A stretch of 62,419 nucleotides of DNA. Source: Proteiniphilum sp. Lineage in GTDB: Bacteria > Bacteroidota > Bacteroidia > Bacteroidales > Dysgonomonadaceae. The notes below the pieces were generated by a model. The model was not told where the DNA came from. It made no database searches and saw nothing but the letters and a program-made list of their open reading frames with translations. The stretch covers positions 1-62,419 of the forward strand of contig JAHDQF010000055.1 of the NCBI GenBank assembly GCA_018433945.1, given 5' to 3'. Made by a program: the position numbers and the translations under genes. Below are positions 17,887 through 62,419 of this stretch, piece by piece. Every line of letters starts with the position of its first letter. The first letter of the stretch is position 1.

Positions 17887-18572
17887 GACGGACTGAACAG
17901 GAGAGCGTGGTCATCGTTGCCGGTGGCAGGGGACTCCGTGCGGGTGGGGAGCTGCCGAAGCAGTTCCGTTTGATTGGCGGTCGTCCGGTATTGATGCATA
18001 CCATTGAGGCGTTTTATCGTTACAACCCTGCGATCGCCATCGTGGTGGTGCTGCCGGAGGACTTTATTGATTATTGGCAGCAGCTCTGTCGCACGCATCA
18101 ATTCATTGTTCCTTTTCGCACCGCAATCGGTGGGGAGACACGGTTCCACTCGGTCCGAAACGGACTGGATCTGATTCCCGCGGAAGGGGTTGTGGCGGTG
18201 CACGACGCCGTACGCCCCCTGGTGAGTCCCGGACTCATCGGTCGTTGTTTCGCTACCTGTGCCGCTAAGCAGTGCGGGGTGATCCCGGTGGTGCCCGTGA
18301 CGGGCAGCGTACGTCTGCTCACAGAAGAGGGAAGCAGCATGATTGACCGGGATCTGCTGCGGGTGGTGCAGACACCACAGCTTTTTCCTGTTGCAGCACT
18401 GAAGAAGGCATACGAAACAGTGTACGATCCCGCCTTCACCGACGATGCCTCTGTAGCCGGGAAGCATGGTCTTCCTATCCTGCTGGAGGAGGGTGAGGAG
18501 AGCAACATCAAGATTACCACACCGCTTGACTTTTTGATAGCGGAGCAGCTTCTTCTGCAGCTGCCAAAATGA
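17883..18572 (+). CDS. ispD: 2-C-methyl-D-erythritol 4-phosphate cytidylyltransferase
   Basis: Third enzyme of the MEP isoprenoid pathway, transferring CMP from CTP to methylerythritol phosphate. The 229 residues begin at ATG 17883. The nucleotide-binding loop (IVAGGRGLRAGGELPKQF) has the conserved Gly, Arg and Lys. The family motifs HDAVRPLVSPGL and VVQTPQLFPV are present, as is TDDASV near the C terminus. Reading further upstream only duplicates xseB sequence in another frame. It is the last gene of xseA-xseB-ispD. Confidence 0.93.
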   Translation: MRRTEQESVVIVAGGRGLRAGGELPKQFRLIGGRPVLMHTIEAFYRYNPAIAIVVVLPEDFIDYWQQLCRTHQFIVPFRTAIGGETRFHSVRNGLDLIPAEGVVAVHDAVRPLVSPGLIGRCFATCAAKQCGVIPVVPVTGSVRLLTEEGSSMIDRDLLRVVQTPQLFPVAALKKAYETVYDPAFTDDASVAGKHGLPILLEEGEESNIKITTPLDFLIAEQLLLQLPK

Positions 18573-47752: not shown

Positions 47753-47825
47753 GACTCCGTAGCTCAGTTGGTAGAGCAATTGACTCTTAATCAATGGGTC
47801 GAGAGTTCGAGCCTCTCCGGGGTCA
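47753..47825 (+). tRNA. tRNA-Lys (anticodon CTT)
   Basis: A 73-nt cloverleaf. Acceptor arms are GACTCCG/CGGGGTC with discriminator A; the anticodon stem is ATTGA/TCAAT with loop CTCTTAA, so the anticodon is CTT. CCA is not encoded. It stands at the left edge of the accessory region and may be the integration target. Confidence 0.93.
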
Positions 47826-47836
47826 CTTCATAATCA

Positions 47837-47874: not shown

Positions 47875-47894
47875 GGTCATACATAGGTCATACA
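47875..47894. repeat. Short direct repeat next to the tRNA-Lys terminator
   Basis: GGTCATACA occurs twice 11 nt apart (47875-47883 and 47886-47894). It sits at the presumed left edge of the element, where integrase arm or core sites are often found. The role is unproven. Confidence 0.35.
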
Positions 47895-48002
47895 AGTTGA
47901 TTGTAACATCAATAAATAACACAATTCAAATCACACTTTCAGTAGATTTCATTTCTGAAACGATGCTGTTAATCCTGGATCTTCAAAACCCACCTTTCTC
48001 CC

Positions 48003-48051
48003 ATTGGTAACATTTAGGAGTATAACTACCTGTACCAACAATGTTACCAAT
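48003..48051. repeat. Perfect 12-bp inverted repeat carrying the GGTAAC motif
   Basis: ATTGGTAACATT (48003-48014) and AATGTTACCAAT (48040-48051) form a perfect inverted pair with a 25-nt centre. The same 12-mer occurs again as the first iteron at 52156-52167, and another TGTTACCAA lies at 48189-48197. The surrounding 47.9-48.28 kb holds no gene. A 10-bp palindrome (CCGGTACCGG) lies at 48203-48212. Confidence 0.6.
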
Positions 48052-48277
48052 CCCTGCAAAAACTGCTTTTCTTCACAAAATAATTAGAACAGCCAAAGAA
48101 CCAATAAGATAATAATAATCGACTAACCAACCAACCCATTAAGATACCACCCAGCCATCCTCCCAACCCCATGGAAACCCCCAAAATGTGTTACCAACTC
48201 CCCCGGTACCGGTCACACCTTCACTCCCTTATCCCTAACAAAATCAAACACATCTGCTGTTTATTATTTTTTATGCT

Positions 48278-48285
48278 TATTTTTG
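48278..48285 (+). promoter_or_regulatory. Promoter -7 box before the candidate structured RNA
   Basis: TATTTTTG matches TAnnTTTG, and transcription would begin near 48290-48293. This coincides with the 5' side of the first stem of the structured region. Confidence 0.45.
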
Positions 48286-48288
48286 TAG

Positions 48289-48475
48289 CGATGTCGGTCA
48301 AAACGTAAGATATATTTTTCGGTGGTGCACTTTACCGAAATTGAGACATCGGCGTTAGTCTTTTTATCTTGGTGCCCTATCGTTCTCTTGTAGAACACTC
48401 GGCACAGCGTGTAAACTGGTAAGCGGTGTAATTGCTACAGCGTTTGTCGGATGAGTGATATTTTTTCACTTTTTG
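48289..48475 (+). ncRNA. Candidate structured small RNA or leader of the element
   Basis: About 185 nt without a coding frame, starting at a -7 box. Stem 1 is CGATGTC (48289-48295) with GACATCG (48345-48351), and it encloses TTTCGGT with ACCGAAA. Stem 2 is GTGCC/GGCAC (48372-48376, 48401-48405) with inner GTTCT/AGAAC (48382-48386, 48392-48396). The last hairpin is AGTGA/TCACT (48454-48458, 48466-48470) followed by TTTT, like a terminator. It could be an sRNA of the element or the structured leader of the gene at 48552. I do not recognise a known RNA family. Confidence 0.4.
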
Positions 48476-48551
48476 AAATAATTCCTTTTGAAGCATGAGG
48501 TCTTTGGATTAGATCAATTGCTGTGCGTATTTAATTCTTAACATTCCTTCC

Positions 48552-50099
48552 ATGAGAGCGAAAGAAAAGCTAGAGTTCAACAAAACCGAATTCGAATTCT
48601 ACATGCTTGTCAAAAAATCTATCTACGATCTTTATCCCCTGAGAACAAACAAACGAAAAACAGAAGAGTATTGCGACAATCATCTCTTTGCCGATGCCAG
48701 GTGTCGGGAGATCTTCAAAATCAACAACTGCAATCATGAATCGGTCAATTTCCATGAAAACGATGATGAAATAGATCACCTGATCTCCTACAGGGTCAGG
48801 AAGGAGATTCAAAACGCCATCTGCGACGACAAGACATTTATCTATGCCTACAACATCATCGAACGGGATCACAATCCCTACAACGATGTTTACAAGAGCA
48901 AGAGTCTCCAACTCAAACCCGAAACTCTAACTTCCGCGAGAGAGATCGAGGAGGAGATCTCAAGCTACAAGGAGGACTATCCCAAGAACAATTTGAGCGA
49001 CTACCTGATCGTTGAGGCGAATTTTAAATTTTACAACGAACGTTTCTTGAATCTTAATTTTGATGATGAGGGGTGGCTCTTTATCTTCAACAAGGCTTAT
49101 GAGATCTTCGATCGCATTCGCACCCTGGCTGCAAATCCCTCGCAAGCCCATCATATCGCCAACAACATCTATTTTGGCGACAAGCTGATGGAGGATACCA
49201 TACTCGACTTCCTACTCCTTCTGATCGATAACTACTCCTACGATCTGACACCGGAGCAGGTGAAGAAGTTCAGGTTGCTGGCATTCTTCATCCGCAAACA
49301 TCGCGACCCGCAGACGCTGACAATTGAGAAGAAATATCTCGACAGAATTCAATCCCTCAACCTGGCTAAGGTGGACTGGATGAAAGCTACACGCTATTTC
49401 AATGTTCACCTCATCTCAAATTGGGTCACCTACTCCGGTCTCTCTTATGATCAGCAGCTGCAAATCCTGAACCTTATCAAAGGGAAATACCTCACCGAGA
49501 AACAGCACAACCCCGATTTCTTCTGTTATGATTTGAGCGATTGCTTCTCTCAACTGCAGCAGCTCTTGACGTCAGATGAACCCCCACCTGGATGCAATGG
49601 CTCACCCGTTCCCTCCACAAACACAATAAATCCCAACCCACCACAAAAGCAACTTCCCATGGTACGCATGATTGAGCACCTGAACACTTCTTTGGATGAA
49701 TTGAAAGAACAAAATGCCCAACTCACCCGGATCATCACACAACAAAATGAAGAATTGAGAGTGCTTCATGAGAAACATGATGAGGAGACCCGTAACATGA
49801 TGACGGTTCTCAACGAACATGAAGAGAACTACAATTCAAAAGGCTTTACGCTTGCTCAAATGACTCTCGTCTTCTATTACCTTTTCAATGAACTGGGCAT
49901 CACCTTCGACAATACACCCAAAGTGAAATGGGCCCGTTTCATTCAGAAAGTCACCGGTAAGCATATTCAAAATGTCAAAACAGAACTCGATATCGATTTC
50001 GATAGCTCAAAAACCAAAAAGAATCTCAAGATCATGGCCGATCTGTTCCTTGAAATGCTGCCACACATCAAAGTAAAAATAGAAAACGATAGTAAATAA
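48552..50099 (+). CDS. Element-encoded coiled-coil protein of unknown function
   Basis: A 515-residue hydrophilic, mostly helical cytosolic protein that I do not recognise with confidence. After a proline/threonine-rich linker (about 350-375) comes a coiled coil (about 380-435, SLDELKEQNAQL and onward). A C-terminal domain (GFTLAQMTLVFYYLFNEL, then FIQKVTGKHIQNVK) has a pattern reminiscent of the RteC-type proteins of Bacteroidota conjugative elements; this is a weak, by-eye resemblance. It is the first gene behind the structured non-coding left arm and is followed by a hairpin terminator. A regulatory or DNA-processing role is possible. Confidence 0.6.
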   Translation: MRAKEKLEFNKTEFEFYMLVKKSIYDLYPLRTNKRKTEEYCDNHLFADARCREIFKINNCNHESVNFHENDDEIDHLISYRVRKEIQNAICDDKTFIYAYNIIERDHNPYNDVYKSKSLQLKPETLTSAREIEEEISSYKEDYPKNNLSDYLIVEANFKFYNERFLNLNFDDEGWLFIFNKAYEIFDRIRTLAANPSQAHHIANNIYFGDKLMEDTILDFLLLLIDNYSYDLTPEQVKKFRLLAFFIRKHRDPQTLTIEKKYLDRIQSLNLAKVDWMKATRYFNVHLISNWVTYSGLSYDQQLQILNLIKGKYLTEKQHNPDFFCYDLSDCFSQLQQLLTSDEPPPGCNGSPVPSTNTINPNPPQKQLPMVRMIEHLNTSLDELKEQNAQLTRIITQQNEELRVLHEKHDEETRNMMTVLNEHEENYNSKGFTLAQMTLVFYYLFNELGITFDNTPKVKWARFIQKVTGKHIQNVKTELDIDFDSSKTKKNLKIMADLFLEMLPHIKVKIENDSK

Positions 50100-50167
50100 C
50101 ATTATTTAACGTGGTGGTAGTGACTTTGTTATACTACTTTTCCCACTACCTCCCGTTTTTTGCCTTT

Positions 50168-50213
50168 TATATTTGCACCACTGTCTCACCGTTGAGGCAG
50201 TGGTGCTCTTTTC
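50168..50213 (+). terminator. Hairpin between the coiled-coil gene and the HTH genes
   Basis: GCACCACTG (50175-50183) and CAGTGGTGC (50198-50206) form a perfect 9-bp stem followed by a T-rich run. A TATATTTG -7-like box (50168-50175) abuts its 5' arm, so it could be a terminator for the upstream gene, an attenuator for the HTH genes, or both. Confidence 0.55.
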
Positions 50214-50252
50214 TATTGGCACGGAAGATTACCCAATTGCCATTTATTTACC

Positions 50253-50597
50253 ATGGATGAAAAGACGATTACCTTCAATGACATCCCTGAGGCAATGAAC
50301 TACCTCATCACTAAAATGAACGACCTGGAGGAGATGATCAGAACTTCTGCCTTCCAACAACCTGATCAGAATGACTGGTTCAACCTTGAGGAGCTCTGCG
50401 ATTACCTCCCCGACCGGCCGGCAAAACAAACAGTCTACAGCTGGGTCAACCAAAAGAAGATTCCCTATCACAAGAAGGGGAAGAAGCTCCAGTTCCTGAA
50501 ATGTGAAATCGATGAGTGGCTGCATACCGATGAACTGCAGCAGGAAATTATCGCGAATCCCGTTTTACAAACCAACAAAAAAAGAAGAAGATCATGA
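50253..50597 (+). CDS. Helix-turn-helix (excisionase/MerR-like) DNA-binding protein 1
   Basis: A 114-residue protein. An acidic coiled N terminus (AMNYLITKMNDLEEMI) is followed by a winged HTH of the excisionase type (FNLEELCDYLPDRPAKQTVY, then SWVNQKKIPYHKKGKKLQF and the wing/helix CEIDEWL). Such paired HTH proteins are standard in Bacteroidota mobile elements, where they control excision or transcription. It overlaps the second HTH gene by 4 nt (ATGA). Confidence 0.8.
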   Translation: MDEKTITFNDIPEAMNYLITKMNDLEEMIRTSAFQQPDQNDWFNLEELCDYLPDRPAKQTVYSWVNQKKIPYHKKGKKLQFLKCEIDEWLHTDELQQEIIANPVLQTNKKRRRS

Positions 50598-50851
50598 AAA
50601 AAGAAAAACATTACGCCATTCTTTATGAGTGGGCCGACTGGGTGGATTCTCAGGATGTGATGCAGAAATTCCACATCTCTGTCCGTACGTTGCAGAGCTG
50701 GCGGACCAATAAGGTTTTGCCCTACTCTTGCATCCGCGGAAAGATCTACTATCGGAAGTCTGACATTCTTCTCATCCTCCAGAAAAATTACAATGGCACC
50801 AGGAAGTCATTGTTACCGGAGTTCAATGATTGCAATGTAGAATTTCGATGA
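50594..50851 (+). CDS. Helix-turn-helix DNA-binding protein 2
   Basis: An 85-residue protein with an excisionase-like winged HTH (WVDSQDVMQKFHISVRTL, QSWRTNKVLPYSCIRGKI, YYRKSDILLIL). It is translationally coupled to the first HTH gene and followed after 15 nt by the ATPase gene. The two HTH proteins share the domain layout but are clearly different in sequence, so they may form a heteromeric regulator. Confidence 0.78.
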   Translation: MKKEKHYAILYEWADWVDSQDVMQKFHISVRTLQSWRTNKVLPYSCIRGKIYYRKSDILLILQKNYNGTRKSLLPEFNDCNVEFR

Positions 50852-50866
50852 TTCAACATCTTTAGC

Positions 50867-52108
50867 ATGAAAGCGAACGCTCTTTCTGCCGATGAAATGA
50901 AAAGTCAGTCGGTAGATATCCTGGATGTCGATATCGAACAATTCAGGATCAACAACTTTGTGAAGCTGTTGGGGGATGATCTGAACGACAACCTCCAACA
51001 GCTTAAAGCTTCCAAACCTGCCGATCTGCTCGAGGTGAAAACCGCAAACAAGTGGATCGAACAGGCTTCCCGGCGTCCCATCCCCCGGATGCTCTTTAGT
51101 GAGTTCTGGTTCGAACAGGAGCTCTGCATCCTCTTTGCCGATACCAACGTGGGGAAGACTATCCTGGCGGTACAAATCGCCGACAGCATATCCCGGGGAC
51201 AATCCATTCCGGGTTTCAAGCTGGAAACAAAAGCGCAGAAAGTGATTTATTGCGACTTTGAACTCAACGACAAACAATTCCAGAGCCGATACTCTCGCAA
51301 CTACGAAGTTCCTTATCAATTCAGCGATAACTTTCTCAGGGTGGAGATTAATCCGGATGCTGATTTTCCCGAGGATGCCTCTTTTGAGTTTGCCCTCAGC
51401 AACGCGATCGAGAGGGTGATTACCGATAACGGTGCCAAGATCGTGATCATCGACAACATCACCTACCTCCGCCACGAGAACGAGCGGGCAAAGGATGCGC
51501 TACCACTGATGAAGCATCTGAAACGTCTCAAAAGCAAGTACAACCTATCCCTGCTGGTCTTGGCGCACACACCCAAGCGTGATCTCACAAAGCCGCTCAC
51601 GCGGAACGACCTTCAGGGGAGTAAGGTGCTGATGAACTTCTGCGACAGCAGCTTCGCGATAGGGGAGAGCTCTTCCGATAGTTCTTTCCGTTACATCAAG
51701 ATGATCAAGGTCCGCTCAACCGAACACATTTATGACAGCTACAACATCATGGTCTGCCAAATTACAAAGCCGGACAATTTCCTTCACTTCAACTTCTTGC
51801 ATCTCGACAGTGAGTATAAGCATCTCAAGACGGTGACGGAACGGGATCGGGAGATTCTTGTTGAGGAGGTCAGCAAATGCATGAAGGAAGATCCTTCCAT
51901 TTCCGCTTATGCGATTGCCAAGCGTCTCTGCCCGGAGGAGAAAAAATTCAGCAGCTTCAAGATCAAAATCCTGCGCATCTATAAGAAGATCATCCAGGAC
52001 GTCAATCTCTGCGATGAAGTAGATTCCGGTCAACAGGATCCTTTCAATCCCGAAGATTATAACCGGTTAAATGGAGATGAAGAATTCCCTTCGTGTACCA
52101 ATCCGTAA
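50867..52108 (+). CDS. RecA-fold AAA ATPase (RepA-like replicative helicase candidate)
   Basis: A 413-residue cytosolic ATPase. Walker A is ADTNVGKT (91-98) and Walker B KIVIIDN (191-197); LVLAHTPKR (about 231-239) supplies a sensor histidine, and NDLQGSKVLMNFCDSSF is the region typical of the RepA/AAA_25 group. The C-terminal part (SKCMKEDPSISAYAIAKRL) looks like a winged-helix domain. It is placed between the HTH genes and an iteron-like array followed by a primase-like gene, which fits a plasmid-type replication initiator/helicase. Helicase activity is inferred. Confidence 0.75.
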   Translation: MKANALSADEMKSQSVDILDVDIEQFRINNFVKLLGDDLNDNLQQLKASKPADLLEVKTANKWIEQASRRPIPRMLFSEFWFEQELCILFADTNVGKTILAVQIADSISRGQSIPGFKLETKAQKVIYCDFELNDKQFQSRYSRNYEVPYQFSDNFLRVEINPDADFPEDASFEFALSNAIERVITDNGAKIVIIDNITYLRHENERAKDALPLMKHLKRLKSKYNLSLLVLAHTPKRDLTKPLTRNDLQGSKVLMNFCDSSFAIGESSSDSSFRYIKMIKVRSTEHIYDSYNIMVCQITKPDNFLHFNFLHLDSEYKHLKTVTERDREILVEEVSKCMKEDPSISAYAIAKRLCPEEKKFSSFKIKILRIYKKIIQDVNLCDEVDSGQQDPFNPEDYNRLNGDEEFPSCTNP

Positions 52109-52155
52109 TAAGTTTCCACTAGCATGACCCTGTCAATCCTAAACGCAAAATTCAG

Positions 52156-52285
52156 ATTGGTAACATTGTTGGTAACACTGGTAACATCGGTAACCCTCCT
52201 ATATATATGTTTCTTTGTTACCAATCTATATAACTGTAAGAATATCAGAGTTTAGACTCTATTTTATTGGTAACACCCTGTTACC
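52156..52285. repeat. Iteron-like cluster of seven GGTAAC motifs with AT-rich segment
   Basis: GGTAAC occurs in direct orientation at 52159, 52171, 52180, 52189 and 52269, and inverted (GTTACC) at 52217 and 52280. The first unit, ATTGGTAACATT, is identical to the arm at 48003-48014. Spacings of the first four are 12, 9 and 9 bp. An AT-rich stretch (about 52197-52265) lies between the motifs. The layout resembles an iteron origin or a cooperative operator between the ATPase and primase genes. Confidence 0.6.
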
Positions 52286-52305
52286 TTTCACTCTTGAAAT
52301 CCTTT

Positions 52306-53496
52306 ATGATGTACAAGCCCCCCTATCTCCAGAAGTATGCCGGCAAGTCTACCCGCTTCACCTGCCCGGGATGCAAGACTCCCCACAGCTTCACCCGCTA
52401 CCTCGATGGGGAGACCCATCAACCTATCCACCCCACCGTCGGCCGCTGCAACCGTGAGATCAAGTGTGGCTATCACTATACCCCCCGGCAATACTTCACA
52501 GATATCAAACGCCAGGAAACCTATGCCCCAACCACAAATCAATTCGTTCCATCTCGTTCCGATCTCCTTTCTCCCGCAACTCAACATGCCACTACTGGCT
52601 CCATGATATCACCCTCAAAATTACCTCAACACGATAAACCTCTGCCCCTGGACTCCAATCACTTTTCTTCACAACCCAAAAGCGACCCTCCCGTTCCTCA
52701 ACATCAAAAATCTCTGCACCTGCAATCTAATCTCCATACTTCACATTCCAAAAGCCAAACAACCGTTCCCCTACCTCTATACCAATACCCGGTTCCCGAT
52801 TCACTCTTTCTTACACCTCAATCCTCCCAACAAAAAACTCCCGACTATATTCCTCGCAAATACCTGAAACGCTCCCTCTCCTACAACTCTAACTTTGTCC
52901 GGTTCCTCCGCAAACATTTTTCTGATCTTCAGATTGCCGAGGCAGCCAACAACTACCTGCTGGGTGCCACGATAAAGAAGGAAGTGATATTCTGGCAGGT
53001 CGATATCAATGGGAAAGTCCGTACCGGTAAGATCATGAAGTACAATCCAACCACCGGCCGGCGCATCAAAAACGGATATGGCGGCATCAACTGGGTCCAC
53101 CACAAGCTGAAGAAATCCAACCCTTCATTCTCCGACTTTAATCTCTCACAGTGCTATTTTGGTGAGCACCTCCTCCGTCTCTACCCCGACAAACCGGTAG
53201 CGATCGTTGAGGCAGAGAAAACCGCGGTGATCGCAAGCATAATCTACCACGATTATAACTGGCTTGCAGCCGGAAACCTCAACGGTCTCAACGTTGAAAA
53301 ATCAAGAGTCCTCCGTGGCAAAACCATCATCCTCTATCCCGATGCCGGCTGTTACAACCGGTGGCTCCGGAAAGCCGAACAAATCAACCGCGAGCTCCCC
53401 CTCCACCTCACTGTCTCCGCCTTCCTGGAGCATTTCGTAACCCCCCAGCAAACCCACAACGGCTACGACCTTGCCGACTACATAATTAAAAAATAA
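52306..53496 (+). CDS. Zinc-ribbon / Toprim-like primase-type protein (DUF6371-like)
   Basis: A 396-residue protein. ATG 52306 (MMYKPPYLQKYAG) is chosen; the frame is open further upstream through the repeats. A zinc-ribbon-like N terminus has CPGC (C20, C23) and later C48 and C54. A long proline/serine-rich, low-complexity linker (about 65-190) precedes a C-terminal domain with VAIVEAEKTAVIAS and TIILYPDAGCYNRW, which look like the Glu and Asp motifs of a Toprim fold. This architecture is common next to RepA-like ATPases in Bacteroidota elements and suggests a primase-related role. Confidence 0.68.
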   Translation: MMYKPPYLQKYAGKSTRFTCPGCKTPHSFTRYLDGETHQPIHPTVGRCNREIKCGYHYTPRQYFTDIKRQETYAPTTNQFVPSRSDLLSPATQHATTGSMISPSKLPQHDKPLPLDSNHFSSQPKSDPPVPQHQKSLHLQSNLHTSHSKSQTTVPLPLYQYPVPDSLFLTPQSSQQKTPDYIPRKYLKRSLSYNSNFVRFLRKHFSDLQIAEAANNYLLGATIKKEVIFWQVDINGKVRTGKIMKYNPTTGRRIKNGYGGINWVHHKLKKSNPSFSDFNLSQCYFGEHLLRLYPDKPVAIVEAEKTAVIASIIYHDYNWLAAGNLNGLNVEKSRVLRGKTIILYPDAGCYNRWLRKAEQINRELPLHLTVSAFLEHFVTPQQTHNGYDLADYIIKK

Positions 53497-53866: not shown

Positions 53867-54526
53867 TCAGCTTCTCACTGTTTTACCCAATGCTTCTAAC
53901 AACTGCGGATTATCCTCTAAACCAATCTTTGCTACTGCATAGAATTCACTCATCCAATCATCTATTTTGGCAAATGCAGCATCTTTTATTTTTGTTGCAT
54001 CTTGTGATTCCCCTTTTTCTTTCAGATAAATTGCTCTTGCTGCTTCTAATCCAGATATTAGGGTGTTTGCTGCTGTCAAGTCGTCAACTGATATTTTTAA
54101 ACGAGCTAATTTACCTTGAATAGCAGAATCGGCAGATGCAACACTGTAAAACTTTTTTGCTGCTTCTAACCATTTTATATATGTCCGTGGCATTACGCCT
54201 GAAATGGCTAATTTATCTGCGATTAATGAATCATTTCGGAATACAACTTTAGCTTTTTTTCGATGGGTGTTAAATGTGTCTTCTAATTGCTCCTTTTTAC
54301 TTGAAAAATCTGCGTAAGCGGCAGATGTTTCATCATCTTCGGTTTTGTTTGCATCGTATGCAGTCCGGGTTTTTGTAAGCAATGCTTTACCTTCTGCGAT
54401 AACTACTGAATCATAACCTAAATCAGCCATAATAGCCGCAATTTCAGGTTGGGTCTCCGCATTTTCCAAAGCTACCCGGTACAATTCCAAAGTTGCTGTG
54501 TCTGTAAGTTTTGTTCGTGATGCCAT
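53867..54526 (-). CDS. Unknown all-helical cytosolic protein
   Basis: I do not recognise this 219-residue protein. It is rich in Ala, Asp, Glu and Lys, with no signal, membrane segment or cysteine cluster. Predicted features by eye are long helices (ATLELYRVALENAETQPEIA; EQLEDTFNTHRKKAKVVF) and a Tyr/Trp pair in RTYIKWLEAAKKFYSVA. It is monocistronic, with a repeat-rich region upstream and the nested palindrome downstream. A structural or stress-related role is possible but unsupported. Confidence 0.6.
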   Translation of the reverse strand: MASRTKLTDTATLELYRVALENAETQPEIAAIMADLGYDSVVIAEGKALLTKTRTAYDANKTEDDETSAAYADFSSKKEQLEDTFNTHRKKAKVVFRNDSLIADKLAISGVMPRTYIKWLEAAKKFYSVASADSAIQGKLARLKISVDDLTAANTLISGLEAARAIYLKEKGESQDATKIKDAAFAKIDDWMSEFYAVAKIGLEDNPQLLEALGKTVRS

Positions 54527-54564
54527 AATTAAATTTTTAAAGGTTAATAATTAATTACATTTGG

Positions 54565-54749
54565 TTTTTTCGCTTTTACAATTCTGTTTTTCAGTCTTAC
54601 AATTGCGTTACCCCCACCGACATTTTCTCTATTCGGATTTGAAATTGATTTTTCCGACCGTACTGCAATATTTCCCCTACTTGCCAGTCTTTTTTTCCTT
54701 TCTACTATTGCATTTTTCAAACTTACAACTGCTATTTTTCAACTTGATG
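54565..54749. repeat. Imperfect 21-nt repeats upstream of the unknown gene
   Basis: Units of the form TTTTTC-N(3-5)-CTTACAA-yTGC recur at about 54565-54584, 54585-54606, 54650-54670, 54712-54732 and, partly, 54733-54749. The 54527-54830 interval has no gene. The repeats lie in the region upstream of the minus-strand gene that starts at 54526 and could be operator sites. Confidence 0.4.
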
Positions 54750-54830
54750 TTGTATTTGTAAAACCAAATGTTAAATATAATGAAAATACTTTTTGTAGGA
54801 ACTCAGTTGCATTTCCGTTTTGTTAAAAAA

Positions 54831-55037
54831 TCAGCAACAACTTTCATTCTTTTGTATCGAAGGGCATTTTACCGAACCATACGAACAATAAACGCAGCAA
54901 TCGCCTTTTTTGGGTTTTATAAAAGCTTTGCACTTTTCACACTCATAGAAGAACTGGCATGAATCTTCAGGCATTTCTTCTTCTTTTTGATGCCCGCAAT
55001 TTGGGCAGGTTATGATTGAGTGGTATTGAATTTTCAT
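54831..55037 (-). CDS. GDCCVxC-domain small cysteine-rich protein
   Basis: A 68-residue protein from ATG 55037. It has a zinc-ribbon-like CPNCGH near the N terminus, then CQFFYECEKCKAFIKP and the family signature KKGDCCVYCSYGSVKCPSIQ, ending CC. It is one of the GDCCVxC proteins, in which some relatives have selenocysteine at a signature position; here the positions are ordinary Cys codons. The many cysteines fit metal binding. It is the last gene of the metal-handling operon, 13 nt after the CDF gene. Confidence 0.75.
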   Translation of the reverse strand: MKIQYHSIITCPNCGHQKEEEMPEDSCQFFYECEKCKAFIKPKKGDCCVYCSYGSVKCPSIQKNESCC

Positions 55038-55050
55038 ATCTATAAAGTTT

Positions 55051-55935
55051 TCAACAATCAGTTTTACATTCCTTTTCAATCCTTTCATTCTCAATTTGAA
55101 AGGTAGTGTGCCCTATCCCGAATTCGTGTTCAAGTTTCTTCTGCAGTTCAGAAATAAATTCATCGTTAAACCCTTCCGGCATTATCAGGTGGGCGGTTAA
55201 AGCTATTTGGGTGGTACTCATTGCCCAAACGTGTAAATCGTGAATATCGTTAACTCCATTTTGGGATAAAAGAAAGTTGCGTACTTTATCAAGTTTTATT
55301 TGTTTGGGTACTGCATCCAGTGCTAAATCAATGGAATCGGCAAATAACCGCCATGTACCCCAAAGGATGACCAGAATAATTATAAAACTCATTACCGGGT
55401 CAATCCATTGAATTCCGGTAAGGTTAATCAAAAGCCCGGCAACAACTACACCCAACGACACCCCGGCATCGGCAGCCATGTGCAGGAATGCCCCTTTGAT
55501 GTTCAGGTCATCCTTTTGGCCTTTCAGAAACAGCAAAGCCGTTATGGTATTGATTACCACACCTATCCCGGCAACAATCATTACTTGCGTACCTGCCACG
55601 GGTTCTGGATTTTTGAATTTTCCTACAGCATCCCAGCCAATTGCTATTACTGCCCCAAAAAGCAATAGCGCATTGAGTATCGATACAAGAATGGTTGTTT
55701 TGCGTAAACCATAAGTGTATTTCCCTTTTGGTTTTATGGAAGCGAGCCTGATTGCAGCCCAGGCAAAAATCAAACTCAGTACGTCGCTGGCGTTGTGGCC
55801 TGCATCGGCTAATAGTGCTGATGAGTTGGCTAATAAACCATAAAATATTTCAACGGCTACCAAGGTGATGTTTAAACCGATGCCAATAGCAAAAGCTTTT
55901 CCGTAACTTTTGTTTGTCGCATGTGAATGTGACAT
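55051..55935 (-). CDS. Cation diffusion facilitator efflux transporter (CzcD/ZitB-like)
   Basis: A 294-residue inner-membrane antiporter exporting Zn2+, Co2+ or Cd2+. Six transmembrane helices and a cytosolic C-terminal domain are present. The transport-site motifs DAGHNASDVLS (helix 2) and HMAADAGVSLG (helix 5) show the HxxxD pairs typical of zinc-type CDF proteins. Four histidines cluster at the N terminus/C-terminal domain (SHSHATNK; HDLHVWAM). It lies 12 nt after ynfA and 13 nt before the GDCCVxC gene. Confidence 0.92.
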   Translation of the reverse strand: MSHSHATNKSYGKAFAIGIGLNITLVAVEIFYGLLANSSALLADAGHNASDVLSLIFAWAAIRLASIKPKGKYTYGLRKTTILVSILNALLLFGAVIAIGWDAVGKFKNPEPVAGTQVMIVAGIGVVINTITALLFLKGQKDDLNIKGAFLHMAADAGVSLGVVVAGLLINLTGIQWIDPVMSFIIILVILWGTWRLFADSIDLALDAVPKQIKLDKVRNFLLSQNGVNDIHDLHVWAMSTTQIALTAHLIMPEGFNDEFISELQKKLEHEFGIGHTTFQIENERIEKECKTDC

Positions 55936-55947
55936 AATTTTACTGAT

Positions 55948-56283
55948 TTAATTTCTTGGGGCGTACATAATGATTCCCATCCCGATAAGCGCAACGATTC
56001 CCCCAATTATATCGTACCTGTCGGGGATAAACCCGTCTACTTTCCAACCCCACAGTATGGCCATAATGATAAAAACTCCACCATAAGCGGCATATACACG
56101 CCCAAAGTTAGCGGGTTGCCAGGTTGCCACAATTCCATACATTATAAGAATTATCCCTCCGATTGCTCCAAACCACCAGGGTTTATTTTCCCGAAGCCAC
56201 AGCCAAACAAGGTAACCACCGCCGATTTCACAGAGTCCGGCTAAAACAAATAAAAGTATGGAATAAACTATTTTCATAAGCAT
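55948..56283 (-). CDS. YnfA-family (UPF0060) small membrane protein
   Basis: A 111-residue, four-helix SMR-like inner-membrane protein. The family signature is clear: [20 protein letters not shown] near the N terminus and [11 protein letters not shown] in helix 3, ending [11 protein letters not shown]. Relatives have been linked to drug or metal efflux, but the physiological substrate is uncertain. The start codon directly abuts the CDF stop upstream (no gap), so it is translationally coupled. Confidence 0.9.
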
Positions 56284-57078
56284 CTATTTCCCTAATTTTA
56301 AAATTCTTAAAGCCCCTCTTACCACAATCAAAAATACAATTGAGCCAATGATTAAATCGGGATATTTTGATTGGGTCAACAATACCAAAACACCTGCAAG
56401 GATAACGCCCGTATTGATAATAATATCGTTTGATGTAAAAATCATGGTAGCTTTCATGTGTGCTTCTTTGCTCTTTGACTTTTGCAACAGATATAGACAA
56501 ACTGAATTCGCAATCAATGCCAGTATTGATACAATTATCATGGTTTGAAAATCCGGCACCTCTTCAAAACTGATAAACCTACGTATTACTTCTACGAGGC
56601 CTATCAGTGCCAATGCCAGTTGAAAATAGCCACTTAGTCGGGCTACTTTTTTCTTGCGGGTTACAGTTGAGCCAACTGCCCAAAGGCTTAGGCCATAAAC
56701 CAACGCGTCTGCCAGCATATCCAGTGAATCGGCAACCAGGCCCATAGATTTTGAAATAAAACCTGTGGTAATTTCAATGAGAAAAAAAGCAAAATTGATA
56801 ATCAGAACTGTCCAAAGCAGTTTCGATTGTACTGATGAATCGTCCTTGAATTCATCCTGTTGGACAACAATGGTTTCTTTGTGTTCCGTGCCCAATTTGA
56901 GTTCTTTAAGGTGTTTTTCGATTTCCTCATTTTCTTCGGAATGAAACACGGTGAGCTTCCGGTTTTCAATATCGAACACCAAACTTTTAATTGTGGAAAG
57001 CCCTTCCAGCTTCATCCTGATAAGGGATTCTTCGGAAGGGCAGTCCATTTTACTGATGGTAAATACAGATTTGAACAT
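56284..57078 (-). CDS. CDF-type cation transporter with degenerate N-terminal metal domain (copy 1)
   Basis: A 264-residue transporter with an N-terminal ferredoxin-like domain (TISKMDCPSEESLIRMKLEG) and membrane helices carrying DSLDMLADALVYG and TSNDIIINTG, so the transport site lacks the usual His residues. It is about 90 percent identical by eye to the C-terminal 265 residues of the protein encoded at 60844-61890, but lacks that protein's first 83 or so residues. It is part of the eight-gene operon, 5 nt after the beta-barrel-like gene and abutting ynfA. Confidence 0.85.
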   Translation of the reverse strand: MFKSVFTISKMDCPSEESLIRMKLEGLSTIKSLVFDIENRKLTVFHSEENEEIEKHLKELKLGTEHKETIVVQQDEFKDDSSVQSKLLWTVLIINFAFFLIEITTGFISKSMGLVADSLDMLADALVYGLSLWAVGSTVTRKKKVARLSGYFQLALALIGLVEVIRRFISFEEVPDFQTMIIVSILALIANSVCLYLLQKSKSKEAHMKATMIFTSNDIIINTGVILAGVLVLLTQSKYPDLIIGSIVFLIVVRGALRILKLGK

Positions 57079-57083
57079 GTGAA

Positions 57084-57551
57084 CTAATCTTTATGCAAAA
57101 CCACATTTAAAGGAATAAAAGCGCCCACTTTCAAGCCCCAGTCAATATTATCAACAGGGGTAAACAGAAATACAAACGCATTTCCCACGTTCCCTAATTT
57201 GAAATTGAGGCCGGTCTGGACTATGAATTTATTTTCATCTATCATATACTCTTCCGCCAAAACCCACGATACCGGGATTTTTTTGTCGAACCCTACAAAC
57301 CAGTATTCGTTAAAATTGTAGATGGTATTGGCAAAGGGCGTGTATCCCACCGACAGGTAGGTTTTATTATTGAACATGGCGCCCAACTCGGCATGGATAC
57401 GCGTTATTTCCGTTTTGTTACCGTCAAAATCGTACATCACAAAAGGGTTAACACGTACCCCTGTGATTACTTTTAACCGTTCGCCTTCCTGGGCATTCGC
57501 TGTGAATACCCAGAAAAGTACGAAGGTTAATAACAACAGTTGTTTTCTCAT
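57084..57551 (-). CDS. Secreted beta-strand-rich protein of unknown function
   Basis: A 155-residue exported protein, start ATG 57551 (a second ATG lies 6 nt upstream). A signal peptide (LLLLTFVLFWVFTANAQ) is followed by alternating beta-strand pattern (ITGVRVNPFVMYDF; YLSVGYTPFANTIYNF; LNFKLGNVGNAFVFLF). It is probably a small outer-membrane beta-barrel or periplasmic beta protein. It lies between DUF302 and a CDF transporter in the metal operon and may form an outer-membrane exit or sensor. Confidence 0.6.
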   Translation of the reverse strand: MRKQLLLLTFVLFWVFTANAQEGERLKVITGVRVNPFVMYDFDGNKTEITRIHAELGAMFNNKTYLSVGYTPFANTIYNFNEYWFVGFDKKIPVSWVLAEEYMIDENKFIVQTGLNFKLGNVGNAFVFLFTPVDNIDWGLKVGAFIPLNVVLHKD

Positions 57552-57595
57552 TTCCAAAGATTTTTTAAATACTTTAGGTTAAAATACTGGCCGTA

Positions 57596-57982
57596 TTATA
57601 CGTTTTCAATGACCTTTTCAAGTTTTGCCCTTATTTCGTTGGCGATTTCCCCTAATTTGTCATTTTCAACCGCCAGCATCGAAGCCATCGGGTCAACGGC
57701 AGCTACTTCTGTTTTGCCATCATCCAGTTCCTGCACAATCACATTGCAGGGAAGCATGGCTCCGATTTTATTTTCGGCCCGCAGCGCTTTATGTGCAAAT
57801 GGCGGATTGCAAGCCCCTAAAATTTGGTATTTATTGAAATCGACATCCAGTTTCTTTTTCAATGTGGCCTGCACATCAATCTCTGTCAAAACCCCGAATC
57901 CTTCTTTTTTAAGTTCTTCGGTTACTTTCTCAATGGCTTCATCGAAACCGTACTCTGTTGTTTTTTCAATGTAATACTTCAT
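57596..57982 (-). CDS. DUF302 protein
   Basis: A 128-residue soluble protein of the DUF302 fold. The typical pattern is seen: DEAIEKVTEELKKEGFGVLTEIDVQATLK, YQILGACNPPFAHKAL and IGAMLPCNVIV, VAAVDPMASM. The two conserved cysteines (in GACNPP and LPCNV) could bind a metal or react with thiols. It often accompanies metal-resistance and efflux genes. It sits 16 nt after the SHOCT gene in the operon. Confidence 0.88.
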   Translation of the reverse strand: MKYYIEKTTEYGFDEAIEKVTEELKKEGFGVLTEIDVQATLKKKLDVDFNKYQILGACNPPFAHKALRAENKIGAMLPCNVIVQELDDGKTEVAAVDPMASMLAVENDKLGEIANEIRAKLEKVIENV

Positions 57983-57998
57983 GATTTTTTATTTTACA

Positions 57999-58226
57999 TT
58001 AAATTTTTTTTCGTTCTTCAAATTCTTGTTTATCAATTTCTCCCTTGGCATAACGCTCTTTTAAAATATCGAGCGCCGACTTACTTTCGGGTAGGTTGCC
58101 GGGGCGGTTATTTTGACTCATTCCTTTAACAACCATCCAAACAACGGCAATTACGATAATGAGCCCTATAACCCACCACCAGCCCATTCCCATTCCCCAT
58201 CCGTGACACCCAAATCCATCCATCAT
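57999..58226 (-). CDS. SHOCT-domain small membrane protein
   Basis: A 75-residue protein. A Gly/Met/Trp-rich N terminus (GCHGWGMGMGWWW) precedes one transmembrane helix (VIGLIIVIAVVWMVV), and the C terminus has the SHOCT motif (SALDILKERYAKGEID, then EFEERK). These small proteins frequently accompany copper/heavy-metal genes. The start could be either of two adjacent Met codons. It lies 51 nt after the Spy-like gene. Confidence 0.85.
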   Translation of the reverse strand: MMDGFGCHGWGMGMGWWWVIGLIIVIAVVWMVVKGMSQNNRPGNLPESKSALDILKERYAKGEIDKQEFEERKKI

Positions 58227-58277
58227 AACATTCTCCTTTCTTTTTATCGCTTGTTTTTTTAAAAACCGAACTGGTGT

Positions 58278-58802
58278 TTACCAACAATTGCTGCGACGTG
58301 ACATCATCATCTGTTTACGAGAATTCATTCCCATATTACCTGCATGCCAGCAATTTTCCGACATATCCCACCAATTGTAATTGTTGTTGTTAAAGTAGGT
58401 AAGCTGCTTTTCAGTAAGAAGTTTTTTTACCTGAACTTTTGTCTCCAGGTTGATATCCTCAATTTTTTCTTCTTTATCGCGGATAGTGCTTCTCAGTGAT
58501 TTCACCTTTTTTACATCGAGCTCGGGATTTGAATTAGCAGCCCGGTATTCCATTCTCAAACTGCGAAGCTCATTTTCGATTGGAAGCTTTTTCTCGTAAC
58601 TGTTTTTACGTAGCTCATTGATTTCCGTAATTTGTTCGGCTGATAAGGCATATTCCGCCGGGGTGTTGTTGTTCCACCATTGGGCATTAGCGTTTACCGA
58701 CCAGTTTGAGTTACAACAATGAGGTTGTGCCATTGCCTGCGATGCAGAAAAGATAATTAATCCTGCAAGTAAAAAAGCCATTTTAAATTTTCCAGTTTTC
58801 AT
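58278..58802 (-). CDS. Spy/CpxP/ZraP-like periplasmic metal-stress protein
   Basis: A 174-residue exported protein. The signal peptide (FLLAGLIIFSASQAMAQ) is followed by PHCCNSNW, an Asn/Trp-rich linker, an LTxxQ-like motif (LSAEQITEINEL), long helices (NELRSLRMEYRAA; IRDKEEKIEDIN) and a second LTEKQLTYF motif. The C terminus is rich in Met, Cys and Asn. This is the ZraP/CpxP pattern of metal-binding periplasmic chaperones. It is the first gene of the apparent eight-gene operon, behind the Fur-type operator. Confidence 0.8.
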   Translation of the reverse strand: MKTGKFKMAFLLAGLIIFSASQAMAQPHCCNSNWSVNANAQWWNNNTPAEYALSAEQITEINELRKNSYEKKLPIENELRSLRMEYRAANSNPELDVKKVKSLRSTIRDKEEKIEDINLETKVQVKKLLTEKQLTYFNNNNYNWWDMSENCWHAGNMGMNSRKQMMMSRRSNCW

Positions 58803-58845
58803 AATTAATAATTTTTAATGTTAGACATTCTAATAATTTCAACAT

Positions 58846-58880
58846 CAAAATTACCAATAAGTTAGTGCAACACTATTGCA
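58846..58880 (-). promoter_or_regulatory. Promoter and Fur-type operator of the metal-handling operon
   Basis: On the minus strand the 15-bp operator (TGCAA-N5-TTGCA, 58866-58880) lies 12 nt upstream of the -7 box TAATTTTG (58846-58853). The layout matches the other operator-promoter at 61947-61982. The operator starts only 4 nt after the end of the Fur-family gene. Confidence 0.6.
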
Positions 58881-58883
58881 AAG

Positions 58884-59297
58884 TTAATCGCAGCGAGGAC
58901 ACACACCGTTAATAATGAATTGAGCATTATCGTAGGTGTAGCCTTCAGGAAGTTTAATGTTGGGAATTGGAAGTTCTTTCATACAACGTGTTCTGCCACA
59001 ACGTGTACAATAAAAATGAACGTGCAGGTCATGTATATTACATGTGCATTCATCATCGCAAACGGCATATTTAACCGAGCCTGAACCATCATCAACAGGG
59101 TGGACAATGAAATTTTCCTCGAATGTTTTAAGCGCCCTGAAAATGGTTGAACGCTCCACTTTTTCAAATCGTTGCTCCAAATCCGCCAGGCTCAGCGCTT
59201 TCCCGGTTTCGGCAAGTGTTTTATAAACCAGGGTTCGCATGGCTGTTGGTTTGACGTTTTTCGATTCGAGTTTTTTGTCGATTTCCTTGTTTTCCAT
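58884..59297 (-). CDS. Fur-family metal-responsive transcriptional regulator
   Basis: A 137-residue repressor. The N-terminal winged helix (TAMRTLVYKTLAETGKALSLADLEQRF, then VERSTIFRALKTFEE) is followed by the dimerisation and metal domain with HDLHVHFYCTRCG and a final CPRC. The structural zinc site (two CxxC) and sensory His residues are present. It is more Zur- or generic Fur-like than PerR-like, but metal specificity is not decided. A candidate promoter -7 box (TAAATTTG on the minus strand) lies at 59345-59352. It likely controls both operators described nearby. Confidence 0.9.
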   Translation of the reverse strand: MENKEIDKKLESKNVKPTAMRTLVYKTLAETGKALSLADLEQRFEKVERSTIFRALKTFEENFIVHPVDDGSGSVKYAVCDDECTCNIHDLHVHFYCTRCGRTRCMKELPIPNIKLPEGYTYDNAQFIINGVCPRCD

Positions 59298-59344
59298 ATC
59301 GTCAAATATTTATGAGAGAAATATTATTCAGAACTTTCATACCC

Positions 59345-59352
59345 CAAATTTA
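59345..59352 (-). promoter_or_regulatory. Promoter -7 box of the Fur-family gene
   Basis: TAAATTTG on the minus strand matches TAnnTTTG, 47 nt before the ATG. No TGCAA-N5-TTGCA operator is seen here, so simple autoregulation through that site is not evident. Confidence 0.4.
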
Positions 59353-59423
59353 CATAAAAATGTTTAATAACCTTACGGGATTTATCTTTACAACTTCAAT
59401 TGCTGTACTACCCACATCTTTAA

Positions 59424-60026
59424 TTACTTGACTCCTTCAAATACTTCAAAATAATTGGAATTGTTCTGAATTGTAAATTTGAAAATACATGAATTCATTT
59501 TTGGATTAAATCCCCCAAAATGATTGTCATTTTGATTGTGTTGGGTATTCATGTGATTGGTCCAGGCGTTCCATTGGTCAGTTCCCGCCCAGTTGCTGTT
59601 GCCCCAACCTTGATTCATATTTCCCCAGCAATTGCCATCGTTCATCCAGGCGTTATTTGTCCAACCGGATTGGCGGTTTGTGCAAAAATCATAATTATTG
59701 CGATTATGTCCATATTCAGCAAAAAAATCTTGTCCGGTATAACACACCATAATGCTGTCATAGTTTTGGTATAGTTGCATTGTAAAGGTTGAATCAAAAT
59801 TGTAGGACAAACAATGCATACTAACTAAGCTATCGTTTATTAGCGTTACATTTAATGTCGCCGGACTGGACTGATTAGTAGCTGTACTCTTAAGAGTACC
59901 TGTATATGTGCCGATTACGCTGGAAGCTAAAGTATTATCCAAGGGTGTTTCTTCTTCCTTGTTACATGAATAAAAAAGGAATCCAACTACTGCTACCATT
60001 AAAAAAATAACTTTTGTATTTTTCAT
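59424..60026 (-). CDS. Asn/Trp-rich secreted lipoprotein of unknown function
   Basis: A 200-residue lipoprotein (start ATG 60026; lipobox FLFYSCNKE). The first domain is a beta-sandwich-like SVIGTYTGTLKSTA and onward. The second half is a striking Asn/Trp/Gly-rich stretch (NDGNCWGNMNQGWGNSNWAG; DQWNAWTNHMNTQHNQN) with many His. It resembles the Asn/Trp-rich part of the neighbouring Spy-like protein. It is possibly a metal-chelating surface lipoprotein. It lies 44 nt after the gene at 60071. Confidence 0.6.
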   Translation of the reverse strand: MKNTKVIFLMVAVVGFLFYSCNKEEETPLDNTLASSVIGTYTGTLKSTATNQSSPATLNVTLINDSLVSMHCLSYNFDSTFTMQLYQNYDSIMVCYTGQDFFAEYGHNRNNYDFCTNRQSGWTNNAWMNDGNCWGNMNQGWGNSNWAGTDQWNAWTNHMNTQHNQNDNHFGGFNPKMNSCIFKFTIQNNSNYFEVFEGVK

Positions 60027-60070
60027 GCCAGTAAATAATTTATTTCGTTTCATTTTTCTATCCTCCTATT

Positions 60071-60571
60071 TTATTCCAATATAAATCCTGCATTTTTAAC
60101 TTTTGCCTCCAATTCGCTATACGCAATTTGTTTTGGATTGTATTCAATCAGTACCTGGTTCGATTTACGATATAACTTAAAATCTTCAACACCTTTAATT
60201 CCGTTTAACAAAGTCGTCAATTTCTCGTTATCACCTTCTTTATGCTCAACAAAACAGATTACGGTTTTTCTTTCATCAATTTTAATTGTAGTGATTTTAT
60301 TATTATCATTAAGTTCAGCTTCTATATAGAGGGCAAAAGGTAAATCTGTCAATTTTGTTTCCTCCCCGTTGTATTTAACAGTCATGTTTTTGTCTATCTG
60401 AACCGGCATGCAAGCCTGTGTTCCTAAAACACATATTACAATTCCGTCGTCACCTAATTTTTCACCACCGACTGTTCCAATAATTTTTTCTGTTTCCTGC
60501 GCATAGATGTTCGCAATTGATACACCAAAAATCAAGACTGTTGCTTTGATTACATTTAATATCTTGTTCAT
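60071..60571 (-). CDS. Secreted protein with C-terminal heavy-metal-associated-like domain
   Basis: A 166-residue exported protein with signal peptide (VLIFGVSIANIYAQ). The first half is a small beta domain containing VLGTQACMPVQ. The C-terminal 60 residues (CFVEHKEGDNEKLTTLLNGI, KGVEDFKLYRKSNQVLIEYN) have the HMA fold pattern but no CxxC, so metal binding by the classical site is lost. It is transcribed towards the lipoprotein gene at 59424. Confidence 0.6.
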   Translation of the reverse strand: MNKILNVIKATVLIFGVSIANIYAQETEKIIGTVGGEKLGDDGIVICVLGTQACMPVQIDKNMTVKYNGEETKLTDLPFALYIEAELNDNNKITTIKIDERKTVICFVEHKEGDNEKLTTLLNGIKGVEDFKLYRKSNQVLIEYNPKQIAYSELEAKVKNAGFILE

Positions 60572-60683
60572 TTTACTTTTTTTATAAATTTTAAGTTATT
60601 GTATGCGAAATTTTAGTTTGATTTCGCTTTTCTGAAAGCGGGCAAGTTGCCTTGCCTGCCTTCAAAAAAAGCATCTAAATCTG

Positions 60684-60854
60684 TTACAATCCTTTGCTAT
60701 TCAGAAAGGAATTGATTTTATATGAACCACTTGACTGGTTGTATGCATGTAAGGCTGAATTTGAAGTAAACAACAATTCCATTTCAGAATAAAGTGGGTC
60801 GTCAGCGGGAATAACATTATTGACTCTAAAATTACTTCCATATCTATTTTCCAA
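60684..60854 (-). CDS. Possible small coupled protein or gene remnant after the CDF gene
   Basis: A 56-codon open frame begins at a TTG (60852-60854) that overlaps the last codons of the CDF gene and ends at TAA (60684-60686). The product starts MENRYGSNF and is polar (DDPLYSEMELLF; SSGSYKINSF), with coding-like composition. No known family is apparent. It could be a translationally coupled small protein or the tail of a lost gene. From 60572 to 60683 there are only two small hairpins (60626-60641 and nearby). Confidence 0.3.
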   Translation of the reverse strand: MENRYGSNFRVNNVIPADDPLYSEMELLFTSNSALHAYNQSSGSYKINSFLNSKGL

Positions 60855-62378: not shown

Positions 62379-62419
62379 AAATATAGGTAAAAACAGAGGA
62401 GGATCAAAACTTTATCTCT

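Follow-up and report, generated by a model that had tools for sequence, protein, structure and literature searches.

A contig of Proteiniphilum sp. (Bacteroidota) carries, between a predicted helicase gene and a predicted primase gene, an array of the short repeated word GGTAAC. The contig was analysed as a whole, and this stretch of 62,419 nucleotides is referred to below as the window. The two genes are part of a probable integrated mobile element that begins at a tRNA gene and runs off the contig at 62419, with its integrase and right end lying beyond. The features on which the argument depends are as follows.

47753 to 47826, forward strand: tRNA-Lys, the left element edge and probable integration site; a tRNA is likewise found in relatives
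48004 to 48197, no strand assigned: second GGTAAC set near the left end (48006 forward, 48043 reverse, 48190 reverse), the first two copies flanking the core AGTATAACTACCTGTACCAAC at 48019
48552 to 50099, forward strand: gene for a 515-aa protein, family unassigned, first in a conserved block and matched in relatives at 32-97% identity
50253 to 50597, forward strand: HTH_17 protein 1 (excisionase-like), a weaker candidate than the helicase for reading the array
50594 to 50851, forward strand: HTH_17 protein 2, likewise a weaker candidate
50867 to 52108, forward strand: predicted initiator-helicase of 413 aa with an AAA_25 RecA fold (AAA_25 E 4e-21; KaiC/RadA matches)
51839 to 52012, forward strand: predicted C-terminal helix-turn-helix (HTH) of the helicase, residues 325-382 (modelled helices 325-341, 347-354 and 358-382), which covaries with the repeated word
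52157 to 52194, forward strand: main iteron block, four direct GGTAAC (52159, 52171, 52180, 52189) on a 9-bp unit
52195 to 52268, no strand assigned: A+T-rich stretch (74%), a candidate melting region, with one opposed copy inside at 52217-52222
52269 to 52285, no strand assigned: opposed GGTAAC/GTTACC pair with a gap of 5 nt, the primase start codon lying 20 bp further on
52306 to 53496, forward strand: DUF6371 primase with an N-terminal Zn ribbon (DUF6371 E 1e-55; Zn_ribbon_16 E 3e-23)

A first-pass annotation of this DNA had claimed seven copies of GGTAAC at 52156-52285, five direct and two inverted, with 9-12-bp spacing in the first four, an adjacent AT-rich stretch, a helicase-like gene upstream and a primase-like gene downstream, and all of these points hold. 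The copies, counted at 52159-52285, start at 52159, 52171, 52180, 52189 and 52269 in the direct orientation and at 52217 and 52280 in the inverted one, giving start-to-start distances of 12, 9, 9, 28, 52 and 11. The A+T content is 74% in 52195-52268, 65% in the gap 52109-52305 and 55% in 48000-53496. Seven copies stand in the 190 bp before the primase, where the commonest 6-mer of 200 dinucleotide shuffles averages 2.38 copies and in none of them (0/200) reaches seven; the whole window contains 32 copies versus 16.3 +/- 4.1 in shuffles. In the 2.31-Mb assembly there are 20 occurrences of a longer form of the word, TTGGTAACA (17 of the backward control), and 7 of the 20 lie within 48004-52275. 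The copies at 48006, 48043 and 48190 near the left end of the element were absent from the first-pass annotation.

The upstream gene encodes an AAA_25 ATPase, predicted to be a helicase, whose PHROGs matches are primase/helicases and DnaB-like helicases. Its structure model (m87f4245d8404, mean pLDDT 70) gives a Foldseek list headed by KaiC and RadA. A Pfam scan of this helicase returned no HTH match, although an HTH is matched in its homologues from loci L037 and L071, and a PDB sequence search with the helicase alignment gave no helicase match and a single match in the HTH region (E 0.006). For the downstream protein, with its Zn ribbon and DUF6371 domain, each of the best 16 Foldseek matches is a chain from a DnaG/T7/T4-type primase or from a replisome/primosome, with DnaG and T7 gp4 at the head of the list; E falls below 0.001 at rank 1 alone (8e-4) and TM-scores are low. 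Sequence searches with the primase gave nothing better than E 0.3 against PDB (alignment query) and no matches in a first viral scan.

The 515-aa gene has no Pfam match above cut-off and no NCBIfam or PHROGs match, and a tRNA (Lys, Gly or Arg) stands directly to its left in 8 of 19 relatives scanned. Directly after the tRNA in the window, at 47875-47894, is a direct repeat GGTCATACA with 11-bp spacing, a word that varies in relatives (GGGAAAACA in L002, GGGTAAACA in L042, AGTCGAGC in L003); perhaps these are arm sites whose word depends on the integrase. HTH_17 protein 1 scores 71.1 bits against the NCBIfam model antiphage_MADS1 (cut-off 80) and thus resembles a defence-associated HTH protein. 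To the right of the primase, 53867-61890 encodes a PQLLE family gene, three Cation_efflux genes (two with HMA domains), a YnfA-like gene, a DUF302 gene, a Metal_resist-like gene and a Fur-family regulator. Together these form a metal-related block, perhaps cargo of the element. The nine ORFs scanned in this direction belong mostly to metal-related families or to no family, with no integrase or relaxase among them, and the 17 window proteins scanned gave no relaxase/mobilization gene, terminase, capsid, ParA/ParM-type or Rep-family match. The close relative L040 has DNA-methyltransferase genes and, beyond them at its far side, a tyrosine integrase; its five scanned proteins included integrase and methyltransferase genes and no relaxase, and a 12-mer search of L040/L107 did not find the attR of L040.

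Conservation of the array layout

Seven close relatives (L002, L003, L004, L042, L007, L040 and L041) keep the plan of the window array, in which a tandem block is followed by an A+T-rich stretch with opposed copies and by an opposed pair before the primase. Across the eight close elements compared, the tandem block has between 3 and 6 direct copies, in most cases spaced by a 9-bp unit, and the opposed pair is kept in all eight, with a gap of 4 in L041. The A+T-rich stretch is nearly unchanged in L002, L003, L004, L042 and L007 and partly retained in L040. The number of units thus varies while the flanks of the closest relatives stay near-identical, a pattern to be expected if proteins bind the repeats. 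A hairpin 20 nt before the start codon could also form from the last opposed pair and so serve as an RNA-level element, a leader or hairpin of the primase mRNA, but the direct copies, the variable 3-bp spacers, the variation in copy number and a word that follows a DNA-binding helix (see below) leave this idea with an almost negligible probability.

To more distant relatives we were led by searches with the primase protein, one giving matches in 32 of 101 family genomes and another giving six loci. On their upstream sequence, 42 primase loci were sorted by eye into 31 groups, one member of each being scored; removal of the discovery set (window, L040 and L041) leaves 28 test groups. Left unscored were L005, L006, L038, L043, L044 and the second primase copy in L051, and distant primase starts were placed approximately from tblastn. 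For the lag test, the 190 bp preceding the primase were scanned for 5-mers that recur at a given lag, with a threshold of at least 3 matches. A lag-9 score of at least 3 was obtained in 19 of the 28 test groups versus 4.4% of 5,081 tiles taken as background elsewhere in these loci. The threshold was reached at lag 18 in 11/28 groups and at every other lag in at most 7/28, and opposed 6-mer pairs fell within the top 5% of background in 17/28. The nine groups that lack a lag-9 signal are L055, L056, L057, L059, L061, L065, L067, L068 and L076, of which L055, L056 and L061 have AAA_25 helicases; other spacings found among them are lag 7 in L065, 8 in L068 and 13 in L056. Within the discovery family, L041 itself has a lag-9 score of 0, its array lying further from the primase and partly outside the 190 bp. 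A cruder comparison of the commonest 6-mer with shuffles (P 0.05) divides the 42 primase loci into 27 that exceed the shuffles and 15 that do not.

While the place and layout recur, the word does not. By eye, the array site contains CTACAC in L053, CGTAACAC in L058, TGGGACA in L037, GGACG in L073, GGAAAC in L070, TTCACT in L047 and others elsewhere; the words of relatives were read in this way except in the scored tests (shuffle, lag, Mantel, upstream-ORF, last ATPase set and GGTAAC count). Additionally, the layout recurs behind three helicase families. An AAA_25 helicase lies upstream in the window, L037, L049, L055, L056, L058, L061, L070 and L071, a DUF5906/D5_N helicase in 15 scanned sequences (with a TIGR01613 P4-type match for L045), and a DUF3987 helicase in L057, L059, L065, L068 and L075.

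Loci were also chosen by the ATPase. An order-wide search gave matches in 37 of 393 genomes; 29 loci were submitted and 27 had a tblastn match, and at least 3 lag-9 matches around the stop codon were found in 21 of these 27 (16/20 after 90% de-duplication). In the IMG/VR set, a lag-9 array was present in 13 of the 14 loci examined out of 17, and in 10/10 after de-duplication. A last set of 34 loci was reduced to 25 by removal of 9 duplicates (L137-L141, L144, L145 and L166-L175 were left out); its lag-9 score was at least 3 in 11/25 loci and below 3 in 14/25, and no array was seen by eye in five (L131, L134, L135, L142 and L165). L125 and L126 have GTCCG repeats at the helicase stop region with a period of 4 bp instead of 9.

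An array in this position could be an operator, at which the helicase or another element protein binds purely for transcription control of the primase gene or operon. The array is upstream of the primase gene, the second set is upstream of the 515-aa gene and a pair in L040 is upstream of the integrase gene, and binding alone would also be compatible with an operator. We nonetheless regard this explanation as unlikely. The array of L037 and L058 reaches into the 3' end of the helicase gene, and the distance from stop to primase start is 3 and ~16 bp, leaving little promoter room after the array. The -7 promoter element, with consensus TAnnTTTG, does not occur on either strand of 52051-52310. 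The same layout stands behind three helicase families, and both L114 and L117 have an array with no DUF6371 match in the DNA examined, L114 having another primase-type gene.

Covariation of the repeated word with the helicase C-terminus

Sequences of the predicted recognition helix at the helicase C-terminus are found with particular words. For example, xLGAVNKYL occurs with GTGAAC, MKVKR and SFKIKILRI with GTAAC, KSTVxRI with GGGACA, DRQVRNI with GGAAAT, TTIHRW with GGAAC and EGAIRK with CGTAC. This association was quantified by Mantel analysis of 50 proteins reduced to 38 that are non-redundant at 90% identity, after L052 (anchor not found) and L103, L104 and L121 (truncated or without a C-terminus) had been dropped. 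Over the 38 loci, motif similarity correlates with HTH identity at r 0.322 versus 0.194 for identity of the ATPase domain. The partial correlation is 0.287 for the HTH (reached in 0/2000 permutations) and 0.121 for the ATPase domain (63/2000), in permutations that leave some shared ancestry. When only DNA after the stop codon is used the values are 0.231 (0/2000) and 0.128 (85/2000), and without the window's family they are 0.354 (0/2000) for the HTH and 0.001 (994/2000) for the ATPase domain. L080 and L111 have 76% of the ATPase in common and 33% of the HTH, and share no motif.

A helix-to-word code was fixed before the IMG/VR scan and a stricter version before the last set was examined. In IMG/VR the code, read by eye, held in all 11 loci that it covered (9 non-redundant). 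The classes of the stricter code cover 5 of the 25 loci in the last set, and 4 of these 5 were correct with non-predicted words in 0/25; the fifth, L132, has CGTAC three times where four were required. Ten near-variant helices, judged post hoc, fit the code (GTAAC in L127, L133, L155 and L157; GTGAA in L148 and L151; GGGAC in L136, L143 and L163; GGAAA in L164, as in L070), while near-variants in L134 and L142 (SVGLVNKLM) and in L165 (SKSTISVW) lack the coded word. The word of L125/L126 (helix ISHQKADRL) differs from that of L112/L116 (ISHQQAKRI and ISHQTAKRI).

The distribution of GGTAAC itself leads in the same direction. At least three copies in the 330 bp before the primase are found in 10 of the 42 loci (the window, L002, L003, L004, L042, L007, L040, L041, L049 and L052), and these ten are exactly the loci with a window-type helicase. 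Two of them, L049 and L052, have the array with no match to the 515-aa gene or to HTH_17 protein 1, and HTH_17 protein 2 is matched at 43% in L049 and not in L052. Conversely, eleven relatives (L045, L046, L047, L048, L050, L051, L053, L054, L060, L063 and L064) have the 515-aa gene and HTH_17 protein 2 with no match to the window ATPase, and in these GGTAAC occurs 0 or 1 times; HTH_17 protein 1 is present in 6 of the 11, and DUF5906/D5_N helicases in all 10 that were scanned (every one but L051). Thus the word goes with the window-type helicase and not with the neighbouring genes, which makes the helicase's own C-terminal HTH a better candidate for reading the repeats than either of the separate HTH_17 proteins.

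These observations also bear on a possible role of the array in excision, as Cox/Xis-type binding sites for the excisionase-like HTH_17 proteins. The HTH_17 genes are in the same operon, three copies of the word lie near the probable attachment end, and Cox of P2 binds short tandem boxes. Such a role is very unlikely given that L049 and L052 keep GGTAAC without a match to HTH_17 protein 1, and that none of the eleven relatives with HTH_17 protein 2, the 515-aa gene and another helicase has an array of the word (11/11). Furthermore, the word shows no covariation with the ORF before the helicase (r 0.005, reached by 459/1000 permutations over 36 loci), although this is a weak control because the ORFs were picked mechanically and many are not HTH proteins.

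With the helicase as the probable reader, the second GGTAAC set at 48004-48197 may be a second initiator site comparable to the crr of phage P4, or else a control site. Its 21-bp core AGTATAACTACCTGTACCAAC is present in the window, L002, L003/L043, L040, L041 and L042, and was not found in the eleven relatives with the 515-aa gene and another helicase (in L045 only ~530 bp upstream were covered, and L054 is partly N). The sole match outside GGTAAC elements, with 5 mismatches in L070, was taken as chance. L002 has just two exact GGTAAC copies at this set. Second clusters of the local origin word also occur in L058 (GTAACA, +8684 to +8727 from the primase start) and in L065 (GGTCAC, -2082 to -2050), both given in locus orientation. 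In L040 a GTTACC pair with 11-bp spacing at 18121-18137 directly precedes the integrase gene, so the initiator may also touch integrase expression.

The left-end set could pair with the first, and iteron-like arrays also serve as centromeres, which together would allow the array to be a partition or incompatibility site of the excised circle and not its origin. We consider this extremely unlikely, given that a scan of 17 window proteins gave no ParA/ParM-type match and that the protein which tracks the word is a helicase-type ATPase adjoining a primase.

A candidate replication origin and its relation to known systems

Three things are computed observations, namely the repeats, a layout that is conserved while its word changes, and the tie between word and helicase C-terminus. 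On these grounds we hold it to be quite probable that an integrated mobile element has its replication origin in the array, where the helicase binds GGTAAC through its own C-terminal HTH and is then loaded. In the mechanism that we propose, the helicase made from the gene directly upstream would bind the 9-bp-phased copies through this HTH and assemble on the two opposed sets, so that oligomers on either side of the A+T-rich stretch are face to face. This stretch would then open and the helicase would load itself as the fork helicase, with priming by the DnaG-like DUF6371 primase encoded just downstream. The excised circle would presumably replicate from the array. Several small relatives are in line with such circles. 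For example, the ~6-kb IMG/VR sequences L114 (1-6120) and L116 (1-6180) contain an integrase, an HTH_17 gene, the helicase and the array, and have exact terminal repeats (77 bp in the part of L114 examined, 127 bp in L116) as circles would show, and the record of L037 (10 kb) is itself circular. A related contig, L111, carries a terminase small subunit gene, which together with the content of L114 and L116 suggests small phage-satellite-like elements in Bacteroidota.

The first-pass annotation had proposed an iteron origin with its own initiator and had suggested looking for covarying repeats in related elements. That search was made, and it found the layout in 19/28 groups and a word that changes with the helicase C-terminus, both of which support the proposal. 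What changes is the identity of the initiator, whose reading part would be the HTH of the helicase and not a separate HTH_17 protein, and the type of origin, which resembles that of SaPI/PICI elements and not that of a classical Rep-iteron plasmid. Classical iteron plasmids (Rep_3 and similar) have a dedicated Rep initiator distinct from the helicase, and no Rep-family match is found among the 17 window proteins scanned, on a contig that ends before the element does.

Among plasmids, RSF1010/IncQ replicates with RepA, RepB and RepC, a system with a RecA-fold helicase, a separate primase, and iterons beside an AT-rich region that are read by the separate protein RepC. The window has the same type of helicase, a separate primase, and iterons next to an A+T-rich region, but its reader appears to be fused to the helicase. 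The HTH_17 proteins are present as RepC-type candidates, and the word does not follow them (by the comparison of loci and the weak upstream-ORF control). The alpha protein of P4 is an initiator-helicase that reads short iterons in two separated sets, ori and crr, and it also holds a primase domain. The window element similarly has two separated sets (52157-52285 and 48004-48197), but its primase is a separate gene. PMC6092414 mentions a cognate ori for P4 alpha.

The closest likeness is to SaPI/PICI elements. As described in PMC7581432, SaPI Rep and SCCmec Cch2 bind, through a C-terminal domain, iterons just downstream of their own gene, and PICI origins are described in PMC6092414 as two iteron sets on either side of an AT-rich region, an organisation stated there not to be shared by any other known bacterial replicon. 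The window shares with these systems an origin that immediately follows the 3' end of the helicase gene, an A+T-rich region with an iteron set on each side, the element's own primase, and a helicase C-terminus that is expected to read the iterons (PMC6092414 and PMC7581432). Iteron sets directly 3' of the helicase gene and on either side of the A+T-rich stretch are seen in the window itself, and covariation argues that the helicase C-terminus determines iteron specificity. The window helicase differs in being RecA-fold AAA_25/KaiC-like and not of the SaPI Rep types (DUF927 or D5/primase_Cterm; PMC7581432), although some relatives of the window do carry D5/P4-type helicases. Furthermore, the window primase is DnaG-like and follows the origin, and the element is in Bacteroidota. 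Phage induction and packaging belong to the known systems; among the 17 window proteins scanned there was no terminase or capsid match. SCCmec Cch2 is similar in having short AAGTG iterons downstream of its own gene that are bound by its C-terminal domain (PMC7581432), but the window helicase belongs to another family. AAGTG occurs 2-4 times in the 190 bp of five D5-type relatives (L045, L047, L050, L053 and L063), 0 or 1 times in 8 of 13 D5-type loci checked and 3 times in the DUF3987 loci L057, L059 and L068, and is thus not specific to the D5 type. The window arrangement would work like a SaPI/PICI origin without being a member of that group by helicase family.

L037 is a 10-kb circular B. 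fragilis record, cfxA-bearing and presumably a Tn4555-like element, in which ATPase, array and primase are arranged as in the window with the word TGGGACA; it differs in having an annotated mobilization gene, while none was recognised in the 17 window or five L040 proteins scanned. A relaxase or mobilization gene of their own marks integrative and mobilizable elements of the NBU/Tn4555 type, and the part of the window element beyond the contig may hold one. Other Bacteroides records also hold an AAA ATPase together with DUF6371. Titles and abstract starts of open-licence PMC papers described no Bacteroides element origin of this kind among the matches listed. The IME review PMC5704250 gives replication genes for several elements; the part available describes no comparable primase/helicase origin in an element of Bacteroides.

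The occurrence in Bacteroidota of the same layout with three helicase families, one of them RecA-fold, makes the layout look either convergent or much more widely spread, and a RecA-fold helicase with its own reading domain and a cassette-like pairing of helix and word appears to be a new variant. We lean towards a general interpretation in which a KaiC/RadA/DnaB-like ATPase of RecA fold with a C-terminal HTH is a one-protein origin reader and self-loading helicase, whose helix and iterons are swapped as one cassette. This would constitute a natural helix-to-DNA code across Bacteroidota mobile elements, within an origin format common also to the D5/P4-type and DUF3987 helicases. The paired helix and word sets provide a directly testable recognition code, and the array provides a sequence signature by which origins could be located in integrated elements whose annotation gives no hint of replication.
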